A stretch of 64,000 nt of DNA from Spirochaetes bacterium GWB1_60_80 (GTDB lineage: Bacteria; Spirochaetota; Spirochaetia; Treponematales; UBA12059), in contig MIAR01000003.1 of assembly GCA_001829185.1 (NCBI GenBank), forward strand, positions 1-64,000, in the 5' to 3' direction. Below the pieces are notes generated by a model. That model was not told the DNA's origin, searched no databases, and saw only the letters and a program-made list of their open reading frames with translations. The stretch's first letter is position 1. Each line of letters begins with the position of its first letter. Shown here in pieces: positions 10,697 through 23,496 of the stretch. Both the position numbers and the translations under genes were made by a program.

Positions 10697-10753
10697 CCTT
10701 CCAGACCGGGCCTACTGTTGGCGCCCTGTATCCAAAATGGTGGAGATGCAACA

Positions 10754-13700
10754 ATGTTCGATGCCGGCAACCTGATAACCCTGGGCGTGGTACTGGTCGT
10801 CCTGATAGCCTTCCGGATACTCGACAAGGACAACCGCTCCCTGGAGAAAATCAAGAAGTACACCGACAAACTCAAGGAAGAGCTCGATGCCGTGGCCGCC
10901 GAACGGGCCGAAGCGCTTAAAAGCTACGCCGTCGAGGTGGACAGCCACAAAAAAGCCGCCAAGGAAGTACTGCGTCAGGTCCAGGAGGCCGAGACCAACC
11001 TGGCCGCCCGCGCCGAAGGCATCGCCTCGGTAGCCCAGCGCATCGCCGAATACGACAAGGCCCTGGCCGAGCTGAAGGCCATGAGCCAGCGCGTCGACCA
11101 GAACCTACATATCATCCACGAGGAAAGTGACTTCGTTGACGGCTTGGCCAAGGAAATCCGCAACACCCGCGCCGATATCGACCAGCTGAACCAAGAGATT
11201 CCGCTGCTACGTACCGCGGCCTATGAGGAATCGCTGGCCAGCGGCCAACAGCTGCAAGCCCGCTTCCAGGCCGACCTGACGGCCGCCACCGTCCAGGCCG
11301 AAGCGCAGAACGGCCGCATCAAACAGGAACTGGACGCCGCCTTCGTGCGCGCCCACGCCGAGGCCCAGAAACTGGAGGCCGCCAGCTTCCAGCAGCTGCG
11401 TGCCCAGATCGAGCAGCGCGTGGCCGCTCTGACTACCCTCCAGGCCGAAGGCAGCCGCCAGGCGCAGGACGCGATGGCCAAGCAGGAACAGGCCAGCCGC
11501 CAGCAAACCGAGGCGGCCGCGGCCAAACTGCGCCAGGAACTGAACGGGCGTATGGCCGAGATTATCCAGCTGGCCGACGGCAACGACGAAAAACTGACCG
11601 GCCTGGTGACCAAGCGCTTCGACGATATCCAAAAGTTTGCCGATAACCGCTCCACGGCGCTGGAAAGCCTGGTCAACCAGCGCCTTGACCAGATCGAGGA
11701 CCAGACCGGGTTGCGCGCCGATAAGTTGACCGCCGCCATCGGCGGCCGCCTGGACGCCCTGGACCAGCTGGCCGGCAGCCGCTCCGCCAAGCTGGAGGAG
11801 GCCATCGAGACGCGTTTCAGCAGCCTGCGCGAACAGGCCAAGGAAAAAGTGGCCGAGACCCAGGGCCTACTTAAGGGCTTCAAGCAGGACTGGCGCAAGG
11901 AGGCCGAGGAACTGCTCGAGCAGTCGCGACAGGCGGCCATGGCCTGCCAATCCCAGCTGGAACCGCTCCTCAAGGACACCCGGCAAGCCTTGGACAAGGC
12001 CGAAACCGGCTGGACGGAGCGCCTGCAGCAGCTGGAAACCAAAAGCACCGAAAGCGCCCAGGCCTTGCTGGTCAAGTTGAAGGACAATCTCAAAGAGCAC
12101 CAGGAAGAATTGACCAAGAAGCACCTGGATACCAAAACCGACCTACAGCTACTATTCAAGCAGCAGCGTGAGGCGGCTCAGGCCCTGGCTGACGAGACCA
12201 CGCGCAGCCTGGCCGAGGCCAACGCCCGCCTGAGCGCCGGCCGGCAAGCTCAGGACAGCCAACTGGCCGCCATCAGCGAACAGCTACAGACGGCCGAACG
12301 TCAGGCCCGGCAAACCATCGACGCCCTGAATGACAAATTCACCCAGCGCGGCGCCGACCTGGAAAACCGGGTGTTGGCCGGCTTCGAGCAGCGGGCCGAC
12401 AGCCTGCGCGCCTTGGTCGAGCAAGGCCTGGAACGACTCGAAGCCTCCCGCCTGGATATCAACCAGCTGGAAAAGGGCCTGCGCGGCAGCATGGCCGGCG
12501 TCGAAAAGCGAGTCGAGGCCGACTTCAGCCTGTTTGCCCAAGATGTCGTCGGCCGGCACGAAGCCTTTGAGGCCAAGATGGCCGCCGAGGCCGGCAAGTT
12601 ACACCACGCCATGAAGGCCCTAGACGAAGATTTGCAGACGCTCAAGGGCAACGCCTACGACAATGTTTCCGCCCAGCTCAAGATCTTCGAGGACGAATTC
12701 TTCGCCGACCTAAAAAAGCGGCGCGAAGACGCCGACCAGAAACTGCAAACCTGGCGCAGCAGCCTCGATGAACACCTGACCAACGCCCTGCACGGCGCCG
12801 ACAGCGAACGAGCCGAGGCCGAGCGCGCCTGGCTGGACGAGGCCCGGCAGCGCGCCGCCGCCATCCAGCAACAGGTCGGCGACGCCTTGGACAAGCTGGC
12901 TGGCCAAGTGGACCGGCACCGCCAGTCCATCACCGAGCGGGTCAGCGAGGCCGACACCGCCCTGGTGCAGCTCAAGGACGCCGTCCGCACCGACCTGGAA
13001 GAGGCCCGCGACGCGGCCAATGCCCTGCTCAAGGCCGAACTGGCCCGTTGGCAGCAGAGCGGCAACGAGCAGATCCAGCAGGCCGAACAGAAGGCCGCCC
13101 TGGAAACCAAGCGCCTAGCCGAGCTGCTCAAGGAGAGCAAAAGCCTGTTCGACAGCGGCCGCTCCGACCTCAACCAGCAGCTGCAGACCTTCAGCCACGA
13201 TTTCGCCCACAAGATGGAAGAGAGCCAGCAGATCAAGCAGGCCGCCATCGAGACCCTCGGCGCCAGCTTCAACAACTCGGTGCAGGCCCTGGACAAGGAG
13301 TGGAAGACCCAGCGCGAGAAACTGGTCGAGGGCAGCAAGGCGGAGCGCGAAACCATCGCCCGTGAGGTCCGCCGCCTGTCCGACGAGTTGGACCGGCTGC
13401 GGACCGACCTCGGGCAGCGCGGCGCCCAGGCCCTGGACGACTTCAAGCGCGAATGGGAAACCGCCCAGCAGGCGGCCAGCCGCAAGCTGCAGGAAACCGA
13501 GGGCGCCATCCAGGCCTCGGTGGAGGAGTACCGCCAGGAGGAAAAAAACCTGCAGTCCGTCTTCCTGAACAGCCGCGACAAACTGCAGAAGGGCCTGGAC
13601 GAGGAACGCCGCGAGCGCGAGAAAATCTTCGCCGAGATCGACAAGCAGGTGAAAGCCTTCCAGACCCAGACACGCCTGTTCGAGCGGGCCGACGAACTGA

Positions 13701-14548
13701 AGCAGCAGCTGGCCGACAGCGTCGAGAGCCTGAAGGCCGACATGGCCAGAGCCGACTCGCGCCGAGCCGAGATGGCCGAATTGGAGACCCAATACGGCCG
13801 CATCAAGCGCGCCGAGGACGAGGTCGGCCAGAAGGTGACCCGTTTCATGGCCGAGAAGCGGCGCATCGACAGCATGGAGGAGGACTTCAAGCGCTTGCTC
13901 GGGCTGTCCCAAGCCGTCGACCAGAAACTGGCGACCGTTACCGCCAACCATGACCAACTGACCCAGCTCCAGGCCGATATGCGCCGGCTGATGGACGCCG
14001 CCGGCGAGGCCAACGAGAAATACGAACGGGTGGAAAAGAAGTCGAGCATCCTGGACGCCACGGCCGACGCCATCGACAAGAACTTCCAGGCTATCAGCGA
14101 GCTGGAGCGCAACCTGCGCGGCCTGGACGCCGACATCAAGGACTTCCCAGACCGCGTCATTCAGTTGAAGCGCTCCATTCAGGAGGTCAGCGCCGTCCAG
14201 CCGCAGATCGACGCCAGCCTAGAGCGGCTGGAGAGCATGGGCCAGCTGATGGTTGACGCCGAGAAGCGGGCGGCCGAACTCCAAAAAGCCCGGGAGTGGC
14301 TGGCGCGGGCCGAGACCAGATTCGAGGAACTCAACAAGAAGACCAACGACCACCTGAAACTGCTCAACGACCTTTTGAAGGACGATCCCGGTCCGCGTAA
14401 AGACAAATCGGGCGCCCCGCCGCTGTCCGTCCAGGAATCGGTCCGCAAGCTGGCTCACCAGGGCTGGAAAACCGACGAGATCGCCCGGGCAGTCAAGCTG
14501 TCGCGCGGCGAAGTGGAACTGATACTGGAACTAAGCAACGACAAGTAG
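10754..14548 (+). CDS. SpiroCoCo family coiled-coil protein
   Basis: A 1264-residue protein with one N-terminal membrane helix (ITLGVVLVVLIAFRIL, about residues 7-22), then the DKDNRSLEKIKKYTDKLKEEL segment typical of spirochaete SpiroCoCo proteins. About 1150 residues of nearly unbroken Ala/Glu/Gln/Lys coiled coil follow. The last 35 residues (VRKLAHQGWKTDEIARAVKL then SRGEVELILEL) look like a small helix-turn-helix module also found at the end of DUF6115 proteins. It probably forms a long membrane-tethered rod. The exact role is unknown, and a cytoskeletal or envelope-spacing role is inferred. The start at 10754 has GGTGGAGATG upstream. The open frame back to 10079 is antisense to the phosphatase gene and was not used. 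Confidence 0.92.
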   Translation: MFDAGNLITLGVVLVVLIAFRILDKDNRSLEKIKKYTDKLKEELDAVAAERAEALKSYAVEVDSHKKAAKEVLRQVQEAETNLAARAEGIASVAQRIAEYDKALAELKAMSQRVDQNLHIIHEESDFVDGLAKEIRNTRADIDQLNQEIPLLRTAAYEESLASGQQLQARFQADLTAATVQAEAQNGRIKQELDAAFVRAHAEAQKLEAASFQQLRAQIEQRVAALTTLQAEGSRQAQDAMAKQEQASRQQTEAAAAKLRQELNGRMAEIIQLADGNDEKLTGLVTKRFDDIQKFADNRSTALESLVNQRLDQIEDQTGLRADKLTAAIGGRLDALDQLAGSRSAKLEEAIETRFSSLREQAKEKVAETQGLLKGFKQDWRKEAEELLEQSRQAAMACQSQLEPLLKDTRQALDKAETGWTERLQQLETKSTESAQALLVKLKDNLKEHQEELTKKHLDTKTDLQLLFKQQREAAQALADETTRSLAEANARLSAGRQAQDSQLAAISEQLQTAERQARQTIDALNDKFTQRGADLENRVLAGFEQRADSLRALVEQGLERLEASRLDINQLEKGLRGSMAGVEKRVEADFSLFAQDVVGRHEAFEAKMAAEAGKLHHAMKALDEDLQTLKGNAYDNVSAQLKIFEDEFFADLKKRREDADQKLQTWRSSLDEHLTNALHGADSERAEAERAWLDEARQRAAAIQQQVGDALDKLAGQVDRHRQSITERVSEADTALVQLKDAVRTDLEEARDAANALLKAELARWQQSGNEQIQQAEQKAALETKRLAELLKESKSLFDSGRSDLNQQLQTFSHDFAHKMEESQQIKQAAIETLGASFNNSVQALDKEWKTQREKLVEGSKAERETIAREVRRLSDELDRLRTDLGQRGAQALDDFKREWETAQQAASRKLQETEGAIQASVEEYRQEEKNLQSVFLNSRDKLQKGLDEERREREKIFAEIDKQVKAFQTQTRLFERADELKQQLADSVESLKADMARADSRRAEMAELETQYGRIKRAEDEVGQKVTRFMAEKRRIDSMEEDFKRLLGLSQAVDQKLATVTANHDQLTQLQADMRRLMDAAGEANEKYERVEKKSSILDATADAIDKNFQAISELERNLRGLDADIKDFPDRVIQLKRSIQEVSAVQPQIDASLERLESMGQLMVDAEKRAAELQKAREWLARAETRFEELNKKTNDHLKLLNDLLKDDPGPRKDKSGAPPLSVQESVRKLAHQGWKTDEIARAVKLSRGEVELILELSNDK

Positions 14549-14680: not shown

Positions 14681-15142
14681 ATGAACGCAGCCATCATCAA
14701 TCCCTTCCTGACGTCCGCCGTGGATCTGTTCAGGGAAATGTTCAGCATCCAGGCCGACGCCGGCCAACCCTACGTCCTGACCGACCAAACCAGCCACAAC
14801 TGGGAGATTTCCGGCATCCTGGGCATTACCGGCGACTACCAGGGCATCCTGGCCTTCCGCCTGCCGCGCCCGCTGGCCGACAAACTACTGGAAAAATCCG
14901 GCGTCACCAGCGACAGCGAGGAAGAGCGCAAGGACACGGTCAACGGCATGGTCGGCGAACTGACCAACATCATTTCGGGCAACGCCTCCAGCAAATTCGA
15001 GAATGTGACTATCGACATCTCGCCGCCGGTAGTAGTCCTCGGCGAGAATCACCGCATCGCCTGGCCGAAGATCGGCCCGGTCATGGCCATTCCCTTCAGT
15101 ACCACGCACGGCAACTTTGAGGTTAACGTTTGTTTGAAATAG
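14681..15142 (+). CDS. cheX: CheX-type CheY-P phosphatase
   Basis: A 153-residue protein of the CheC/CheX/FliY family. The catalytic ExxN signature is E93 and N96 in MVGELTNIISGNA, present once as in CheX. CheX removes phosphate from CheY and is a major chemotaxis phosphatase in spirochaetes. CAAGGAG precedes the ATG. It stands alone here, with no cheA, cheY or cheW nearby, downstream of the SpiroCoCo gene. The mobile element copy 3 lies 15 bases after its stop. Confidence 0.9.
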   Translation: MNAAIINPFLTSAVDLFREMFSIQADAGQPYVLTDQTSHNWEISGILGITGDYQGILAFRLPRPLADKLLEKSGVTSDSEEERKDTVNGMVGELTNIISGNASSKFENVTIDISPPVVVLGENHRIAWPKIGPVMAIPFSTTHGNFEVNVCLK

Positions 15143-15157
15143 CGACGGCGGCCTTAG

Positions 15158-15286
15158 CAGGGTGTTGAAAAACGCGGATGCGGCTTTTCAACACTTCAAA
15201 AGCCGGTACAATTACGCAGCATAGCGCAAGCTATGCGAGGAATTGTTAAGGTTGTTGAGAAAGCAACCGGCTTTTTCAACAACCTG
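15158..15286 (-). mobile_element. 129-bp MITE-like element, copy 3 (reverse)
   Basis: Full-length copy in reverse orientation, flanked by TTAG at 15154-15157 and TTAG at 15287-15290. The target differs from the TTAA of copies 1, 2 and 4, which shows that the four flanking bases belong to the target and not to the element. It lies in the gap after cheX. Confidence 0.9.
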
Positions 15287-15291
15287 TTAGA

Positions 15292-15366
15292 GCTAGCCAG
15301 CTTGCGGTGGCCGGCTGGCTAGCCAGCTTGCGGTGGCCGGCTGGCTAGCCAGCTTGCGGTGGCCGG
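15292..15366. repeat. 26-bp tandem repeat, almost three units
   Basis: The unit GCTAGCCAGCTTGCGGTGGC plus CGGCTG is repeated at 15292-15317, 15318-15343 and 15344-15366 (last unit incomplete), with no mismatch seen in the complete units. Each contains the palindrome GCTAGC. It directly abuts mobile element copy 3 and fills the space before the 15419 gene. No coding or RNA function is apparent; a slippage-prone array or protein-binding sites are possible. Confidence 0.85.
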
Positions 15367-15418
15367 ATTCCGCCAAAACCCCTTGTTTTTATGGCCGCCA
15401 TCGACCAGACTTAAATCC

Positions 15419-16522
15419 ATGACCAGCGATCAGTCGTTGCCGCTCAATGATTCTCCCGGAAAAACCGATAGGTATAGGGGGTATCAGGCAGTGACAGTAA
15501 AGAGCGGATTTGCGCTCGTCGACAACGACCGGAAATTAATCCGGGAACATCTTCACCAAATCCGCGAAGCCTTGTTTGCCTGCACCACGCAGGAACAGGT
15601 CGAATGCGCGGTCGGCTTTGCCCGCTATCTGAACCGAGCCGGCCTGACGGCCGACAATTTCTGGTTGTTTCTGCGCCTGGTAATGACCAACAACCCTTGG
15701 GTCATCGACGAGCTGCTGCACGAACGCGAACCCAAGCTGCTGTTTTCGACCATCCAGCCGGATCAGGAATTGATTGAGGCCGCCTTTCAGACCCTGTTCG
15801 CGCGCCATCCAGAAGAAATCTACACGCCAGTGCTGGAGGCCATGCTCGGAATCATCCAGAATGCCTATTTTGACCCGGATGACGGCTACCGCCTCCGTAA
15901 AATCACGATCATGGATATCAATACCCTGGGCAAATTCCTGCTCAAGGCCGAACCCCAGGACCACCCCTTGAACCGCCTGGTGCTGGAAATCCTGGACCGG
16001 CTGGCGCATATTGGCGATTACTACGGCGAGCCTGATAAAAACGTCCTGTCCAAGCACGCCTTCAATGTCCGCTATGCCTATTTCGACCACACCCGCGATC
16101 TGATCGATGCCATTCCAGAACCCTTGCTGATACGCTTCCCCGATCGCCAGGGCGTGCACCCGGAGGACGATTTTGCCGAACTGGTTTCCCAGCGAAGGCT
16201 GCGCAAACGGGATCCTCATGGACGGTTTGTAAAAGAAAGCGAGCCGGTAGCCGCGCTTCAGTCAAGCGCTGATCCGGTTGTCAAGCCGCTTGCTGCGCCG
16301 CCGCCCGCCCAACCTAAGGTGGCCGCGACCAATCCGTCGGCCGGCCGCCTAAAGCCCGGGTCGGCCAGCGCCACTACGCTTGGCAAGTCAACCAAGTCAA
16401 CCAAGTCAGCCAAGTCAACCAAGGCAGCCAACACAACTGCCTCAAAAGGGTCTGCCGCCCAACCTAGAAGCAAGCCAACGCCAAGCGCTGGCCAACCCAA
16501 AGCGCCTAAAAAGCCGAGATAG
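15419..16522 (+). CDS. Paralogue 1 of an unrecognised helical family, with Lys/Pro-rich tail
   Basis: A 367-residue protein. Residues about 30-245 match the three shorter paralogues at 18544, 19264 and 20055. Shared blocks are NPWVIDELL, STIQPDQEL, DDGYRLRK, IMDINTLGKFL and LNRLVLEILDRL. The family is not one I recognise. The last 100 residues are a low-complexity Ala/Pro/Lys/Thr tail with TKSTKSAKSTK encoded by 9-bp AAGTCAACC repeats (16384-16422), probably disordered and basic. ATG 15419 was chosen, but it has no good ribosome site. The GTG at 15491, preceded by AGGGGG, is a credible alternative that still keeps the conserved domain. It is the first gene of a same-strand cluster with a phosphoesterase and a kinase-like gene. 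Confidence 0.75.
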   Translation: MTSDQSLPLNDSPGKTDRYRGYQAVTVKSGFALVDNDRKLIREHLHQIREALFACTTQEQVECAVGFARYLNRAGLTADNFWLFLRLVMTNNPWVIDELLHEREPKLLFSTIQPDQELIEAAFQTLFARHPEEIYTPVLEAMLGIIQNAYFDPDDGYRLRKITIMDINTLGKFLLKAEPQDHPLNRLVLEILDRLAHIGDYYGEPDKNVLSKHAFNVRYAYFDHTRDLIDAIPEPLLIRFPDRQGVHPEDDFAELVSQRRLRKRDPHGRFVKESEPVAALQSSADPVVKPLAAPPPAQPKVAATNPSAGRLKPGSASATTLGKSTKSTKSAKSTKAANTTASKGSAAQPRSKPTPSAGQPKAPKKPR

Positions 16523-16559
16523 CCTGGATATACAGTCTTCTGACCAAACAGGAGGGAAA

Positions 16560-17534
16560 GTGGCGCGGAGAATCGCACATGGCACTGGCGCAACAACTAG
16601 TCAACCGGCCAGTCAACCGGCTATCAAGCCCGGGTTGACCGGCGCACTCAAGATCCGCCAGGTAATCGAACTGGTTCAGTCTATGCCCGGCCGACTGAAA
16701 AACACCGCTGGCGAACCCGGCGGCTTGATCATGTTTCCGCCCGCCAAGCGGCCGATCATCATCGGCGACCTGCACGCCAACCGTAAAAACCTCCGGGATA
16801 TCCTGGTTCACGAGAATAACCAGGCTGACCTGGAAAGCGGCGCGGCGGCCTGCATCTTCCTGGGCGACATACTGCATGACGACCAGACCGGACACATGAA
16901 GGAAATGCAGAGTTCGGTAGAAATTTTTGACGACTTGCTGGACATTTTCCTGAAATATCCGGGCCAGATATACTATATCCGCGGCAATCATGATAGCTTT
17001 GACGAGCGATTGCGCAAAAGCGGCATTTCGCAGGGCGTGGAATGCAAAAACGCCATGCTGGCCGCCCATGGTCCCGCCTACGTCGAAGCCGTTAATGATT
17101 TTTTCCTCAGCCTGCCGGTGTTCGTCATCGGGCAGGGCTTCGTCATCACCCATGCCGGTCCGACTCGCGGCGGGCTATCGCGCGACGAACTAATCAACAT
17201 CAAGAACTACCCGGAAAAGCTGCACCAGCTAATGTGGAACCGCGTCAACGAATTCCATGGCAATCCCAGCCTGAAGGAATATGGCGAAAAGGACCTGCGT
17301 TTGGTGCTGGATCTGCTGGATCTGCCGGCCGACACCCATTTCATCGTGGGGCACAACCCGCTCTGGAACGACGGAAACAAAGTCGGCGTCTGGCAGAATG
17401 TCATCGGCATGAAGAATCACCATATCCTGTATTCGGGATCGGGTAGCCGAGCGCCTTATTTTACCATCGAAGACGGCGTGCTAGTCTGCAAGTTCGCCAT
17501 CTCCCAACAACCTGAGGTATATTATTATGGATGA
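16560..17534 (+). CDS. Calcineurin-like metallophosphoesterase (PPP-like)
   Basis: A 324-residue phosphoesterase with the complete metal-site set: GDLHA (D70, H72), GDILHDD (D103), GNHD (N143, H144), THAG (H198) and GHNP (H265). The order and spacing are like PPP-type protein phosphatases and ApaH/PrpE relatives, although the PPP motif GDxxDRG reads GDILHDD. The GTG start at 16560 is chosen because AGGAGG lies five bases upstream; no in-frame ATG fits. About 50 poorly conserved residues precede the domain. It overlaps the kinase-like gene by eight bases, so phosphatase and kinase are made together. The substrate may be the neighbouring paralogues, which is inference. Confidence 0.85.
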   Translation: MARRIAHGTGATTSQPASQPAIKPGLTGALKIRQVIELVQSMPGRLKNTAGEPGGLIMFPPAKRPIIIGDLHANRKNLRDILVHENNQADLESGAAACIFLGDILHDDQTGHMKEMQSSVEIFDDLLDIFLKYPGQIYYIRGNHDSFDERLRKSGISQGVECKNAMLAAHGPAYVEAVNDFFLSLPVFVIGQGFVITHAGPTRGGLSRDELINIKNYPEKLHQLMWNRVNEFHGNPSLKEYGEKDLRLVLDLLDLPADTHFIVGHNPLWNDGNKVGVWQNVIGMKNHHILYSGSGSRAPYFTIEDGVLVCKFAISQQPEVYYYG

Positions 17535-18447
17535 ACAGGCAAAATTGGCCCTTGATGTCGGCGATCAGGATTTAATCCGTTATTTCTATCTCAATATGAC
17601 GACGCCCGCCGTCCTTGAGTATATGGACAAACTGCGGCTGACCCTGTCCGGCAAGCAGGATGACGTCCCCTTCAACGCCCAGGTCAAGAGCTATTTTGGC
17701 GCCCGGGACCAAGATGGCGACCAATGGATCGTCAAGCCGGTAGTCGATGCCCAGGAAATGCTCTACCATCGGGCTTGCGAGCTAGCTTATTTATTGGATC
17801 ACCGCACCGGCACCTTCGCGGCGCCGACGACGGCGCTGTTGATCGACAAAAAGCGCTATCGGGCTACCAAAGTAGTACCCCATGCCGTACAGATCAGTTC
17901 CTACAACTATATGGAAGCGCCGTTTATCAACATCTTGCGCGCCGACCTGGTCAATCGCTGGATTTATTTCGACGAGGACCGCAATCCAAACAACTACCTG
18001 ATCATCAACAACCAGAAGAACCGGCAGTTTATCGTCGCTATTGACTACGACAAGGCCGACATGCTTTCCGAAACCATGAAAATCACCGGCATGCCCGACA
18101 AATTCGGCTGGCTGCGCGCCGAGAAGACCCGCTTCCTGACCTTGCTCCGCCCGGACAACTTCCAGAACATCTCGATCGACGAATTCGAAGCTCGACTCGG
18201 CGCTTTTAGCGCGGTTTCCAAGGAAGAGTTTACCAACCTCTGCCGAATGGTCTTTACGGGTTATTGCGACGATCCGGCGGCGCTAGGCGAGAAAACCGCC
18301 CGCAATATCCTGCAGCGCCGGGATTACGTTAATAATTATTTCCGTCAGATGTTCAAATCGGCCGACGAAACCCAGGCCAACAGCCAGGATTGCGACTATT
18401 CGGCCTTCGGGGAGAGCTTTATGGCCATGCACAATAAAAAAAAGTAG
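17527..18447 (+). CDS. Atypical kinase-like protein (HipA/PI3K-like catalytic motifs)
   Basis: A 306-residue protein that I read as a divergent kinase. WIVKPV (K70) could supply the ATP-binding lysine and E77 or E85 its partner. RWIYFDEDRNPNNYLI (D149-N156) resembles the D-x-x-N-N catalytic loop of HipA-like and PI3/4-kinase folds. FIVAIDYDKAD (D173, D175) fits the metal-binding aspartate that follows. No canonical HRD or DFG is present. It overlaps the phosphoesterase gene by eight bases, giving an apparent kinase/phosphatase pair. An alternative is an enzymatically dead member or a different nucleotide-binding fold. The gene call is certain; the kinase call is an inference from short motifs. 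Confidence 0.6.
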   Translation: MDEQAKLALDVGDQDLIRYFYLNMTTPAVLEYMDKLRLTLSGKQDDVPFNAQVKSYFGARDQDGDQWIVKPVVDAQEMLYHRACELAYLLDHRTGTFAAPTTALLIDKKRYRATKVVPHAVQISSYNYMEAPFINILRADLVNRWIYFDEDRNPNNYLIINNQKNRQFIVAIDYDKADMLSETMKITGMPDKFGWLRAEKTRFLTLLRPDNFQNISIDEFEARLGAFSAVSKEEFTNLCRMVFTGYCDDPAALGEKTARNILQRRDYVNNYFRQMFKSADETQANSQDCDYSAFGESFMAMHNKKK

Positions 18448-18465
18448 CTATTTTGGACTTCCGGC

Positions 18466-18493
18466 TTGACAAGTCCGCAAGTCGACCTAGAAT
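18466..18493 (+). promoter_or_regulatory. Sigma70-type promoter for paralogues 2-4
   Basis: TTGACA at 18466-18471, a 16-base spacer, and TAGAAT at 18488-18493 (five of six matches). It lies between the kinase-like gene and the second paralogue, so the cluster probably has two transcription units: paralogue 1-phosphatase-kinase, and paralogues 2, 3, 4 with the pseudokinase. Confidence 0.65.
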
Positions 18494-18543
18494 TATAGAT
18501 AGCAGGTCACAGGTTTTTGGTTCATCTTCACATGGAGGTTATG

Positions 18544-19242
18544 ATGGATAAGCAGACCGAACGGGTCATCGAAAGAACTTGGTCGAAAGAGACCATAGTG
18601 CAGGTTGAGCTTGGTATTGTTCAGAACATGCTTGGCTCAAGAACTGAGGAAGCGGTGGAAGGTTCGATCAGTTTCGCCCGTTTTCTCAGCCTTTCAGGCT
18701 TGAACAATGACAATTACCCATTGTTCCTCAAATTGCTGGAAGTTGAAAACCATTGGGTGATCGATACCATGGTCGGCAAGAAGGATCCCTTCCTGCTACT
18801 GAGCGCCATCCAACCGAACAGCTACGTCGCCTTCACGGCTTTCAAACTGCTGACCAACTGGCATCCGGGCGGCATCTATCCGGTTACCTTGTCGATCGTC
18901 CTGGGCATCCTGCAGGCCACCTATGCTTCGCCCAAGGATGGATACAAGATTTTCTCGGTCTCCATCAACGACGTCAACAATCTCGGCAAGCACCTCAACA
19001 AAGAACTGGGACAGGATGATCCGAACAACCGGTGTATCCTGGATATCCTGGACAGGATGGGAACTTTGGCAGGCACATCGAATAACGCCGACAAAGAGCA
19101 AATGGCGCGGCAAGCCAACAATATTCGTACCTTCTATTTTGACAAGCGCAAGAAAATGGAAGACGTCATTCCGCAAGTCTTGCTGGTCAAGTCAGACTAT
19201 GTTGCCAAAGAAACTGCTCCCAAGCAGCTGTTCGTCGACTGA
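18544..19242 (+). CDS. Paralogue 2 of the unrecognised helical family
   Basis: A 232-residue soluble protein. Family blocks are NHWVIDTMV, SAIQPNSY, IYPVTLSIVLGILQATY, SPKDGYKI, INDVNNLGKHLN, NNRCILDILDRM and NIRTFYFDKRKKMEDVIPQV. It lacks the basic tail of paralogue 1. ATG 18544 is preferred because GGAGG sits five bases before it; an ATG three bases earlier and a longer reading to 18517 are possible. There are no membrane segments and no recognised enzymatic motifs. It is followed 21 bases later by paralogue 3. Confidence 0.8.
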   Translation: MDKQTERVIERTWSKETIVQVELGIVQNMLGSRTEEAVEGSISFARFLSLSGLNNDNYPLFLKLLEVENHWVIDTMVGKKDPFLLLSAIQPNSYVAFTAFKLLTNWHPGGIYPVTLSIVLGILQATYASPKDGYKIFSVSINDVNNLGKHLNKELGQDDPNNRCILDILDRMGTLAGTSNNADKEQMARQANNIRTFYFDKRKKMEDVIPQVLLVKSDYVAKETAPKQLFVD

Positions 19243-19263
19243 AAATAAGGAAGGAGCACGGAT

Positions 19264-19980
19264 ATGAAAGAACTTTTTGAGAAGAAGCAGGACTGGGCGG
19301 AAAGCGAAGTCCAGCAGATAGAATACAGCATGCTCAAGGGTATATTGGGCTGCCGCAGCATTGAGGCGGTCGAGGCGGCTACCACCTATGCCAGTTACTT
19401 GAACTTCACCGGCATTACCAACGGCAACTATCCGGTTTTCCTAGGCATCCTGACGGTTCGCAACCATAACGTCATCGATGCCCTCCTGGGTACCCGCGAT
19501 CCCTTCCTGTTCATGAGTTCCATCCAGCCCAACTACTTCATCGTCTCGACCTGCTTCGCGATCCTGACCAAGTATCGCAAGGCCGAGATCTATCCCAAGA
19601 CCCTGGGCATCATCCTGGGCGTATTCCAGGCCACCTATAACTCGCCGCTCGACGGATACAAGATCTATCCGCCCTGCGTCGCCGACGTCAACGCCCTGGG
19701 CAAGCACCTGAACGAAGAAAAAGGCCAGGATGATTTATTAAATCGCAGCATTCTGGATATTCTGGACAAATTATCGTCCCTGGAAGGCCAAAACGTGGAC
19801 GAAGACATGGAAGACTTGGCGATCCATTCGCACAACATCCGGAATAACTTCTTCGACTCCAAAAAGCACCTGGTCGATGTCATTCCGGAAGTTCAGCTGC
19901 GCCTCGAGCAGAATCTCGACAAGGACGTCCAGCCGCGCAATCGCCTGCCTTTGGCCGAGGCTGAAAAGCAGCCGGCCTAA
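19264..19980 (+). CDS. Paralogue 3 of the unrecognised helical family
   Basis: A 238-residue protein with the same blocks as paralogue 2: NHNVIDALLG (Trp replaced by Asn), SSIQPNYF, IYPKTLGIILGVFQATY, SPLDGYKI, VADVNALGKHLN, LNRSILDILDKL and NIRNNFFDSKKHLVDVIPEV. AAGGAAGGAG precedes the ATG. It is closest to paralogue 2 by eye, so the two are probably a tandem duplication. Confidence 0.8.
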   Translation: MKELFEKKQDWAESEVQQIEYSMLKGILGCRSIEAVEAATTYASYLNFTGITNGNYPVFLGILTVRNHNVIDALLGTRDPFLFMSSIQPNYFIVSTCFAILTKYRKAEIYPKTLGIILGVFQATYNSPLDGYKIYPPCVADVNALGKHLNEEKGQDDLLNRSILDILDKLSSLEGQNVDEDMEDLAIHSHNIRNNFFDSKKHLVDVIPEVQLRLEQNLDKDVQPRNRLPLAEAEKQPA

Positions 19981-20054
19981 CACCGCAAGACCGTAACAGA
20001 ACTGGCTGGCCGCCGGATCCGTCCGGCGGCGTAGTCCAGAATCAGGAGGAATAG

Positions 20055-20756
20055 ATGCCCGGCGCCGAATGGCCTATGTGGTCTGAGAAGGAGATAGACG
20101 CGCTCTCGCTCAGTTATATCAAGGATGTGATGGCTTGCGCCGATGAATATGGCACGTTTGTGGCCATAGCGCTTTCACATTACCTTGTCAAGAAGGTCGG
20201 ATTACACCCGGATAACTACCCTATCTTTTTCCGGCTGATCGAATCCGGGAATCATTGGGTCATCGATACGCTGGTAGCCCAAAGCGATCCCACCAAGTTC
20301 CTGGGCACCATCCAGCCAAACACCTTCATGCTGAAAGAATGCTTCCGGATGTTGACCGTCTGGAAACCCGGCCAAGTCTATCCGACTGCCCTGGTCATCA
20401 TCTATGGCTTATTAACCCAATGCTACAAGATGCCCGAGGAAGGCTACCGGATGTACCCCTTGACGGTTAGTGACGTCAACAATCTCGGCAAGCACCTGGA
20501 CAAAAGCAAGGACCAGATGGATCCCCTCAATCGGGTCGTACTGTCGGTGCTGGACCGCTTGGCCAGCCTGATCGAGCCGCAGAAGCCGATGCCGTCCATC
20601 GAGATACAGGACGTGGCGCTGCAGGCCAACAATATCCGGGGCAAGTTCCTGGACATGACCAAGTCGCTGAATGAAAGCATTCCCGATGTCTTGCTCGAAC
20701 GAGGCGATTATACCCTCAGCCAGGTCAAGCCGAATGTCGCGCCCATCGTTCTGTAA
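20055..20756 (+). CDS. Paralogue 4 of the unrecognised helical family
   Basis: A 233-residue protein. Conserved blocks are NHWVIDTLVA, GTIQPNTF, VYPTALVIIYGLL, EEGYRMYP, VSDVNNLGKHLD, LNRVVLSVLDRL and NIRGKFLDMTKSLNESIPDV. It is more divergent in its first 40 residues than paralogues 2 and 3. AGGAGG precedes the ATG. A hairpin terminator-like structure follows its stop, before the pseudokinase gene. Confidence 0.8.
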   Translation: MPGAEWPMWSEKEIDALSLSYIKDVMACADEYGTFVAIALSHYLVKKVGLHPDNYPIFFRLIESGNHWVIDTLVAQSDPTKFLGTIQPNTFMLKECFRMLTVWKPGQVYPTALVIIYGLLTQCYKMPEEGYRMYPLTVSDVNNLGKHLDKSKDQMDPLNRVVLSVLDRLASLIEPQKPMPSIEIQDVALQANNIRGKFLDMTKSLNESIPDVLLERGDYTLSQVKPNVAPIVL

Positions 20757-20772
20757 GCTGCCTTGAACCCCA

Positions 20773-20825
20773 AGGGCCGCCGGCTTTGCATAATCCAACG
20801 ATGCAGGGCGGCGGTTTATTTTTAC
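20773..20825 (+). terminator. Hairpin with T-rich tail after paralogue 4
   Basis: GGCCGCCGGCTTTGCAT and its partner ATGCAGGGCGGCGG form an interrupted stem of about 11 pairs, followed by TTTATTTTT. It may end most transcription after paralogue 4 or set a lower level for the pseudokinase gene that starts 14 bases later. Confidence 0.55.
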
Positions 20826-20838
20826 CGGTGGATGTAAG

Positions 20839-22737
20839 ATGACCGCCTTAACCCCATTCCTGGAGATCAACCATTGCTACACGCTCCAGGAGCGAGTTGG
20901 GCATGACCAGTTTTCCGATCTCTGGCGGGCCTCAGCCCTCTATTCGCCTAATCAATTCCTGCTGCGCTTCCTACACGAATCGTATACCGACCCGGCGGCC
21001 ATCACGCTCTTCCGGCAAGAAGCCCGCCGTTATTTCGCCTTTGCCAATGACTCTTTCAACGGCTTCATCGAAGTCGACTTCGCGGACGGGCGGCTTTTCG
21101 TCTCGTCGGAATACGGCTCCCGGATACTGCTATCGCAGTGGATCGAGGCTGGCCACCGCCTAACGATCCAGGAGGCCTGCCTTAACGCCATCCACTTGGC
21201 CAGGCTAATAAACCAGATTCACGAAAAAGGTTTGGCTTTCGGCAGCCTGAATCCGGAGTGCATCACCGTTGGCCCCACTGCCGCGGCTGGCGCGCCGGGG
21301 CGATTCAGGATCGACATACCAAGCTATTCCGCGTTTTTGGCTAGTTGCAAGGCTCAAGGTCGATTACCTCCAAGTGTTCAGTTTTTCCTGGCGCCGGAAA
21401 TTGAGGCTGGTCTACCGCTCCGGGCGGCTAGCGATCTGTACTCACTCGGCGCCTTATTGCGCCTTTTTCTGGACGATCAGCCGCAGCGACTGGTAACTGC
21501 CGGCGGTTTGGCAAACCGGCGGCCAGACGCCGATAGACTCAACGAACTGGACGCGAGCGGCAGTCTGGCCTGCATCATCGACCGGGCGCGGGCCAGCGAT
21601 CCGGAGGAGCGCTTCCGGAATTGCGGCCAGTTTATAGAGGCGATCCAATGCTTTCTGGATGAGCGGAGCTGGACGGCGCAGCCCGAGCCAGGCGATCTGT
21701 CGGCCGAAGGCCTGGCTCAGCCAGCCGGCTCACTGACGGCCGCGCCAAGCGGCGCCGAATCGGGCGGCCGGCCGGAGATATCCCGTTATTTCCGGGAACT
21801 GGCGGCCGACTATTTGGGCTGGCAAGGCCAGCCAGCGGGCACGGCAGACAGCGGCAAAATTCCAGTCAGCCACGGCCAGACACCTCGGCCGCTGCCAGCC
21901 AAGGCAGCAGGCTACCCGACAACCGACCTGAAGCCGCTTGAAGCTGCAACCGTCAGGCCCATCACGCCAGCCTCGCTAATACCGCCGTCGACTGAGCTTG
22001 CCGCCAGCTCGTTGCTACAGCCGCCGATTCCGACGAAGGATCCCGTTCCGCAGAATGAAGCTCTCCAGCCAGTCCTGGGCCAGCCAGCCAGCCTGGCCGC
22101 ACCGCCCGACCTCAAATACAACTGGCACTATCGCCGCCTGTCGTTTGAACAGTTTACGGACGCCATCAGGGATACGATTCGCCGCTGTCGGCGGGGAACG
22201 GGCGATTTCCGCTATATCGGGGAGCCGGATTCGCTAGAAACCCTCGACCATCTCGATGCCTTCTTCGAGAGTATCGCCGACCAATGCCTGCTGGTGGATA
22301 TTGGGTCGATGTTGCGGTTTGGGAGAGCCGATGTGACTGATTTCCTGACGGCCTTCAGCCAGGCCCTGGCCCGCAAACTGCGCCAGGAAAGCCGCCGATC
22401 AATCGGCCGCTTTGCGAGCTTGATCGAACGGCTGGGAGCCCGAGCCTTTTTCTCGGCATACCCGCTGGGCGAAATGCTCTACGGCGCCAATCTGGACAAT
22501 GTCAGCCCGGGCAAGGATGACTATCGATCCATCATCCAGGCGATGGCCATTTTCGGCCGGCGTCGAAAGCCGCTACTATTCATCGTCCGTGGCGGCGAGT
22601 GCATTCAGCCCGAATTGGTAGGCTTCTTCAATGCCATCATTCCGCTTATAGCGCCCCACCCGGTTTGTTTCTTCATTCTCGGCGAAAATTTCCCGGAGAG
22701 CCTGCGCCCGACGGAAGGCAGAGACCAGGCCAGTTGA
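20839..22737 (+). CDS. Pseudokinase-like protein with unrecognised C-terminal domain
   Basis: A 632-residue protein. Residues about 10-275 follow the Ser/Thr protein kinase fold: a short N lobe, LARLINQIHEKGLAFGSLNP where HRDLKP should be, FLAPEIE for the APE motif, and ASDLYSLGALLRLFL for the helix after it. Catalytic residues are missing: no VAIK lysine (FLLRFL), no HRD aspartate (GLAFGSLNPE) and no DFG (RIDIPSYS). A proline-rich linker (about 280-425) leads to a C-terminal domain (about 430-625) with an alternating helix and strand pattern that I do not recognise. It most likely binds a partner as a scaffold or sensor for the cluster. This role is inferred. Confidence 0.7.
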   Translation: MTALTPFLEINHCYTLQERVGHDQFSDLWRASALYSPNQFLLRFLHESYTDPAAITLFRQEARRYFAFANDSFNGFIEVDFADGRLFVSSEYGSRILLSQWIEAGHRLTIQEACLNAIHLARLINQIHEKGLAFGSLNPECITVGPTAAAGAPGRFRIDIPSYSAFLASCKAQGRLPPSVQFFLAPEIEAGLPLRAASDLYSLGALLRLFLDDQPQRLVTAGGLANRRPDADRLNELDASGSLACIIDRARASDPEERFRNCGQFIEAIQCFLDERSWTAQPEPGDLSAEGLAQPAGSLTAAPSGAESGGRPEISRYFRELAADYLGWQGQPAGTADSGKIPVSHGQTPRPLPAKAAGYPTTDLKPLEAATVRPITPASLIPPSTELAASSLLQPPIPTKDPVPQNEALQPVLGQPASLAAPPDLKYNWHYRRLSFEQFTDAIRDTIRRCRRGTGDFRYIGEPDSLETLDHLDAFFESIADQCLLVDIGSMLRFGRADVTDFLTAFSQALARKLRQESRRSIGRFASLIERLGARAFFSAYPLGEMLYGANLDNVSPGKDDYRSIIQAMAIFGRRRKPLLFIVRGGECIQPELVGFFNAIIPLIAPHPVCFFILGENFPESLRPTEGRDQAS

Positions 22738-22749
22738 GCGGAACCGGCC

Positions 22750-23496
22750 CTATTTGCTTTCGTTCAAGCCATCGACCACGTAATGGCCCTTGCCAATTTT
22801 CTTGGCGCGCTTCAGGGCCTGCCTAGCCCGTTCTAAAATGGCAGGACCTTCCAGCGGCGAGCCGGTAGCCGCGCCGACCGAACCGCCGATCCAGACAATG
22901 CCTGAGGCCATCTCGATCGGCCGCTGCAGCATTTCAGCCATCTTGCCGGCCTGTTCGACCGCTACTTCCAGGGCATGATTCGGCACTACCGTGGCGATGG
23001 CCGCGAATTCGTCGCCTTCCGTCCGGGCGGCAATACCATCCTCGCCGATGAAGGAAGAAACGCGCTTAGCGGCCTCGCGCAGGATGGTGTTGGTCTGTTC
23101 CAAGCCGCGCGCCTGCAGCAGTTGGGCATAATTTGCCAAATCCGCGGCCAGGATGACGATGGATTTCTTGTCTTCCACCAAGCGTTGGCTTTTTTCCTGA
23201 AACCAAGCATTAAGCCCGTTCATGTTCGCCAACCCGGTCAATTCATCGATCCGGTCGGCGGCTATGACGGCGGGTCCGCTGGCCTGGCTAGCCTTGCCGG
23301 CGCGGCGCCGCAGTCCCGCTGCTCTGGAAACGGACAGCCAGACCACGCAGATGACCGGCGCTACTACCGCGCCGATGAGCAAGCCAGACCAGCCGGCCAA
23401 CAGCGTCGTCAGACCCGAGACCAAGGCGATAACCAGGGCCATGGCCAGAGCGCTGACGGCGGTGAGGCTTCCCGCCTTGAAAATAGTTGTATCCAT
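22750..23496 (-). CDS. Membrane GGDEF-domain protein
   Basis: A 248-residue protein with two N-terminal membrane helices (about 12-33 and 38-56) and a cytoplasmic GGDEF domain. The signature reads RTEGDEF (E160-F164), so the first glycine is glutamate; such variants can be active or not. DELTGLANMNGL and the later GGSVGAA block are intact. There is no RxxD inhibitory site five residues upstream. Possible products are cyclic di-GMP or a related dinucleotide. It faces the pseudokinase gene tail to tail, 12 bases apart. Confidence 0.82.
   Translation of the reverse strand: MDTTIFKAGSLTAVSALAMALVIALVSGLTTLLAGWSGLLIGAVVAPVICVVWLSVSRAAGLRRRAGKASQASGPAVIAADRIDELTGLANMNGLNAWFQEKSQRLVEDKKSIVILAADLANYAQLLQARGLEQTNTILREAAKRVSSFIGEDGIAARTEGDEFAAIATVVPNHALEVAVEQAGKMAEMLQRPIEMASGIVWIGGSVGAATGSPLEGPAILERARQALKRAKKIGKGHYVVDGLNESK

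Follow-up and report, generated by a model that had tools for sequence, protein, structure and literature searches.

The window analyzed here, 64,000 nucleotides of contig MIAR01000003.1 of Spirochaetes bacterium GWB1_60_80, carries seven genes that are inherited as a unit and encode four paralogs (P1 to P4) of an unnamed protein family, a kinase, a metallophosphatase and a pseudokinase (Table 1). Our preferred reading, held tentatively and at a little under even confidence, is that these genes constitute a protein-phosphorylation module in which the kinase and phosphatase reversibly switch a P1-P4 hetero-oligomer, or a protein docked on it, with the pseudokinase as an adaptor and with a link to the membrane. 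The paralog family is without a Pfam or NCBIfam name and without a solved relative, and no fold in the searched libraries matches it; its three partners, the kinase, phosphatase and pseudokinase, each belong to a known superfamily. No named family, phage, plasmid or defense system matches the module, and the open-access literature yielded nothing on such a system. The module appears to be new: nothing in those libraries is related to its core family by sequence or fold, and no described system has the same parts. This is in line with the proposal of the preliminary description that it is an undescribed phosphorylation system.

Table 1. Features of the module locus and its immediate surroundings (window coordinates)
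Feature	Position	Strand	Remarks
SpiroCoCo-family coiled-coil protein	10748..14545	+	Directly upstream; NCBIfam NF047515, E 8.5e-93
CheX-type CheY-P phosphatase	14681..15139	+	Directly upstream
27-nt inverted repeat	15155..15289		Immediately 5' of P1; arms 15155-15181 and 15263-15289
Three 26-bp tandem repeats	15292..15369		Immediately 5' of P1
P1 paralog	15419..16522	+	367 aa; helical domain, then Lys/Ser/Thr/Pro/Ala-rich C-terminal tail
Metallophosphatase	16560..17534	+	GTG start behind AGGAGGG; calcineurin-like, all metal ligands present
HipA/CtkA/PI3K-type kinase	17527..18447	+	306 aa; K70, D151-N156 and D173 intact
Phosphatase-stop/kinase-start overlap	17527..17534	+	8 bases
Promoter-like site TTGACA-16-TAGAAT ahead of P2	18466..18493	+	Consensus match only, 11/12
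P2 paralog	18544..19242	+	232 aa
P3 paralog	19264..19980	+	238 aa
P4 paralog	20055..20756	+	233 aa
Pseudokinase	20839..22737	+	Degenerate Ser/Thr kinase domain (~residues 10-280), disordered linker, C-terminal domain
TM-anchored degenerate GGDEF protein (accessory)	22750..23496	-	Convergent with the pseudokinase gene, 13 bases away

All seven genes do lie on the plus strand of the window, as first described, in the order typical of what we call Treponema-type loci (P1, phosphatase, kinase, P2, P3, P4 and pseudokinase on a single strand). In Spirochaetales-type loci, P1, phosphatase, kinase and, where present, pseudokinase face P2-P3-P4 on the opposite strand, and a membrane protein with a terminal LysM-like domain is often included. 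The start of P2 is more likely the ATG at 18544 than the TTG at 18517, since GGAGG lies just upstream and orthologs begin with MDK. The overlap reported between the phosphatase and kinase genes proved exact, and it is again 8 bases long in 14 loci (the window included, a duplicate record of the L060 contig left out). It is likely a device of translational coupling, by which the kinase and the PPP-like phosphatase would be made in step. The SpiroCoCo and CheX genes were considered as module parts and rejected, as they do not recur beside other loci.

The sequence blocks by which the paralogs had been recognized as one family (WVID, IQPN, DVNxLGKHL and LNRxxLxILDRL) are common to all four in an alignment, and the 3.60-Mb source genome contains exactly four copies, all at this locus. 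Pfam and NCBIfam returned chance matches only (Pfam was also run on 80 paralogs), and a sequence-profile search of the PDB returned none. An AlphaFold model of P2 (single chain, the 233-aa version from 18541) is all-helical with a pLDDT of 93, and a fold search with it of the PDB and viral model libraries gave nothing significant; a weak likeness to ARM and TOG domains is apparent, the best PDB fold match having an E of 0.3 and Arm_3 reaching an E of 0.078 in one member. ARM/HEAT scaffold subunits such as that of PP2A are likewise all-helical; the paralogs differ from them in the lack of a significant fold or sequence match and in forming a set of four obligate paralogs in a bacterium. Six polar residues (N70, K150, Q158, N163, R196 and D201) are invariant in 80 family members. 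A tree of 155 paralogs resolves ortholog groups P1 to P4, a P5 group and one further divergent copy, the latter two representing a divergent clade and its SAR324 relatives, in which P1 is missing; complete loci in the Spirochaetia normally have one each of P1, P2, P3 and P4. Judged from this tree, the four ortholog groups are ancient. Away from the module, a further divergent paralog of ~190 aa is encoded at L064:7189-7755 and L120:7862-8425, with one or two in-frame stops in the matches. The C-terminal tail of P1 is missing from Spirochaetales-type orthologs, and the idea that it is an essential substrate was rejected on that ground.

The rates at which the proteins evolve single out two of the paralogs. 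Across 14 Treponema-type loci, mean identity is 89% for P2, 87% for P3, 72% for P4 and 60% for P1, compared with 59% for the phosphatase, 58% for the kinase and 31% for the pseudokinase, making P2 the slowest-evolving member of the module and the pseudokinase the fastest. The trees of the module genes agree closely in a mirror-tree comparison (r 0.89-0.97), which argues that the module is inherited as a unit. Furthermore, in genome G374 (L115:10055-11383) P2 and P3 form a single 442-aa frame, the junction having been lost in-frame, with a LysM membrane protein nearby. The slow evolution of P2 and P3, the strict ortholog groups and this natural fusion together point to a hetero-oligomer with a P2-P3 core. 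The possibility of such an assembly had been raised in the preliminary description, and ancient, distinct and obligately co-inherited paralogs, to which the fusion adds, would favor it. Under our model P2 and P3, as helical-repeat, ARM/HEAT-like subunits, would form the constrained core of the hetero-oligomer, and P4 and P1 would complete it.

The kinase matches no Pfam or NCBIfam family above chance (Pfam was also run on 37 kinases), nor any PDB entry in a sequence-profile search. Its AlphaFold model (pLDDT 91) has a bilobal kinase-type fold that matches CtkA, PI3K/PI4K, PI4KIIalpha, HipA and LicA; CtkA is the best match (probability 1.00, TM ~0.45-0.5; 3akl, E 1.9e-4), and HipA (3dnt) is matched with an E of 3.7e-3. 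W67, D151-RNPN-N156 and D173 are invariant in all 37 homologs and K70 in 36 of them, their active-site roles being assigned by analogy rather than by superposition. The fold, together with the presence of the Lys, Asp/Asn and metal Asp, places the protein in the HipA/CtkA/PI3K-like superfamily, as its motifs had suggested, with a predicted active site that appears intact. HipA has a catalytic D-x4-N and a later metal Asp, with a spacing that we take to be like that of the window kinase. In contrast to HipA and CtkA, the module kinase is without a Pfam or NCBIfam match and a HipB antitoxin, and it is paired with a phosphatase and paralogs. The phosphatase, for its part, is a Metallophos protein (PF00149, E=4.9e-11, above the cut-off) with the five-motif metal site of the calcineurin-like/PPP enzymes; D70, H72, D103, N143, H144, H198 and H265 are invariant in 13 homologs, which bears out the earlier observation of a full set of metal ligands. 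Its profile lies nearest to the PPP Ser/Thr phosphatases BSU1 and PP5, with which it shares a Metallophos domain with all ligands, but it is distant from them (profile E 1e-7), has conserved motifs of its own and is encoded by a gene coupled to that of the kinase. At L062:14924-16324, beside the module, another phosphatase of the module type is fused to two CBS domains.

That the module has a kinase and a phosphatase of its own, both with the active site intact, points to reversible phosphorylation of the assembly or of a protein bound to it. The main competing explanation, which has a real but minor chance of being correct, is that these enzymes act instead on a small molecule or lipid, in the manner of a PI4K and an Ap4A phosphatase, and that P1-P4 bind or process the compound, the many invariant Asn, Asp, Lys, Gln and Arg residues of the 80 family members being its ligand site. 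It draws on the similarity of the kinase model to PI3K, PI4KIIalpha and small-molecule kinases such as LicA, and on a weaker profile match of the phosphatase to diadenosine tetraphosphatase (2qjc, E 5.5e-4). However, the best profile matches of the phosphatase are protein phosphatases, the best fold match of the kinase, CtkA, is a protein kinase, and ligand binding alone hardly explains four separate conserved paralogs.

That these proteins work together is indicated above all by their distribution. When 85,000 species genomes were scanned for the kinase, at least 46 loci were located, an undercount because the scan depends on exact motifs; most are in uncultured Spirochaetota and the rest in SAR324, 'Deltaproteobacteria' and unnamed bacteria. 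Among 393 sampled Spirochaetota genomes the kinase is present in 16 and the paralogs in 19, and all 16 kinase genomes have paralogs (Fisher P 8.5e-26, with genomes treated as independent and relatedness ignored). The paralogs stand without the kinase in three genomes: G028, where they are on a 3.3-kb contig; G215, which is fragmented; and G374, where no kinase was found although P2-P3 (fused) and the LysM protein are present, suggesting that a P2-P3 core can be retained in its absence. Within SAR324, paralogs occur in 6 of 52 genomes, the same six as the kinase (its absence from the other 46 being judged by motif scan), and five of the six have the kinase unlinked to the paralogs. Far from occurring mostly on their own, the paralogs are thus accompanied by the kinase in 16 of 19 genomes in the Spirochaetota and in 6 of 6 in SAR324, which agrees with the conserved system proposed earlier. 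The strongest indication of a common function is that kinase and paralogs keep occurring together even where their genes are unlinked.

The SAR324 loci also bear on a second alternative, that the paralogs serve the phosphatase as helical-repeat subunits for regulation or targeting, like those of PP2A or PP6, each specifying one target on which the kinase opposes the phosphatase without acting on the paralogs themselves. A PPP-like phosphatase with all-helical partners would fit this arrangement, as would the phosphatase gene adjoining the paralog genes, with the kinase gene elsewhere, in the four kinase-unlinked SAR324 loci that were read. In PP2A-type systems, however, the phosphatase is expected to be better conserved than its partner subunits; here P2 and P3, not the phosphatase, are the most conserved, and we regard this alternative as decidedly unlikely. 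In SAR324-type loci L102 (8705-9643, 9959-10855), L103, L104, L106 and L108 the kinase gene follows an MtxA-like gene, whose L102 copy encodes three MtxA-type Pfam domains, and precedes a DHH-type gene, so the kinase may act on other targets in these genomes. MtxA has been described from magnetotactic bacteria (PMC4439547).

An anti-phage or abortive-infection system is highly improbable. The distribution is patchy, the module being missing from G357, of the same genus, and from six further genomes of the taxonomic family, and the pseudokinase has a weak similarity to PD-T4-6 kinases that reflects the shared kinase fold. Nevertheless, PADLOC run on the module genes matched nothing apart from the pseudokinase, few neighboring genes recur from locus to locus, none of the loci was found on a phage, plasmid or viral contig, and the very slow evolution of the core is unlike that of most defense genes. 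A HipBA-type toxin-antitoxin locus with passengers is scarcely credible despite the HipA/CtkA-like kinase fold, because in Spirochaetota loci the kinase neighbors the phosphatase and paralogs or pseudokinase and no small DNA-binding protein, and the seven window proteins (ORFs of at least 70 aa) include no match to a HipB/HTH family beside the kinase.

In the phosphorylation model that we prefer, the remaining member, the product of the 20839 gene, would serve as an adaptor. Profile comparison gives it a protein-kinase fold, with PknB-type kinases matched at E=3e-34, and the HRD and DFG motifs are lost in 17 of 17 aligned rows, in agreement with the initial view of a kinase fold with its catalytic residues replaced. 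Such loss across orthologs is characteristic of bacterial Ser/Thr pseudokinases, families of which have been reviewed (PMC12599244); as far as the available portions of that review describe them, they share the degenerate PknB-type domain, while the C-terminal domain and gene context of the module protein differ, the comparison being one of descriptions. In Treponema-type loci the C-terminus looks, by eye, like a degenerate P-loop (STAND/AAA_16-like) domain, and most Spirochaetales-type pseudokinases end in a basic amphipathic helix. Being the fastest-evolving member, the pseudokinase is likely a lineage-specific adaptor. It was not found in some divergent loci or in the SAR324 neighborhoods, which counts against the model.

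Two accessory genes went unremarked in the preliminary description: that for the TM-anchored degenerate GGDEF protein, in part of the clade, and that for the LysM membrane protein, in other spirochetes. GGDEF orthologs, most of them with a degenerate signature, adjoin the module in five genomes besides the window; none was found in seven module-less relatives, nor in two of five module-bearing relatives. The LysM protein was found only in genomes with paralogs, and was rejected as a universal module part because none of the Treponema-type genomes tested has it; the idea that its N-terminus is a distant paralog was likewise rejected (hhalign probability 0.8%). That some accessory genes encode membrane proteins suggests a membrane location, and the P1-P4 assembly probably sits near the membrane. 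Beside a SAR324 paralog-phosphatase locus, L111:3345-7404 encodes an HD-domain protein without an HD-GYP motif and a fructose-1,6-bisphosphatase. A c-di-GMP link through such neighbors (the GGDEF protein and the SAR324 HD-domain gene, which has no HD-GYP motif) is suggestive only.

We propose that the kinase would add, and the phosphatase remove, phosphate on the assembly or a docked protein, switching it between two states, and that the pseudokinase would dock the kinase or phosphatase and link the assembly with a membrane partner that differs between lineages. This partner may be the degenerate GGDEF protein in Treponema-type loci, and the LysM membrane protein together with the basic amphipathic tail of the pseudokinase in Spirochaetales-type loci. 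It is unlikely, but would accord with such a scheme, that P2 and P3, with P1 and P4, polymerize or tile into an undescribed membrane-linked structure switched by the kinase and phosphatase, with the pseudokinase and pseudo-GGDEF protein as non-catalytic adaptors. In bacteria, to our knowledge, dedicated kinase-phosphatase pairs with known targets are few. Small and complete, the module lends itself to testing reversible phosphorylation by a bacterial kinase of the HipA/PI3K type and a phosphatase of the PPP type, and its unnamed core family is the best-conserved part of a gene set kept in divergent spirochetes and SAR324.
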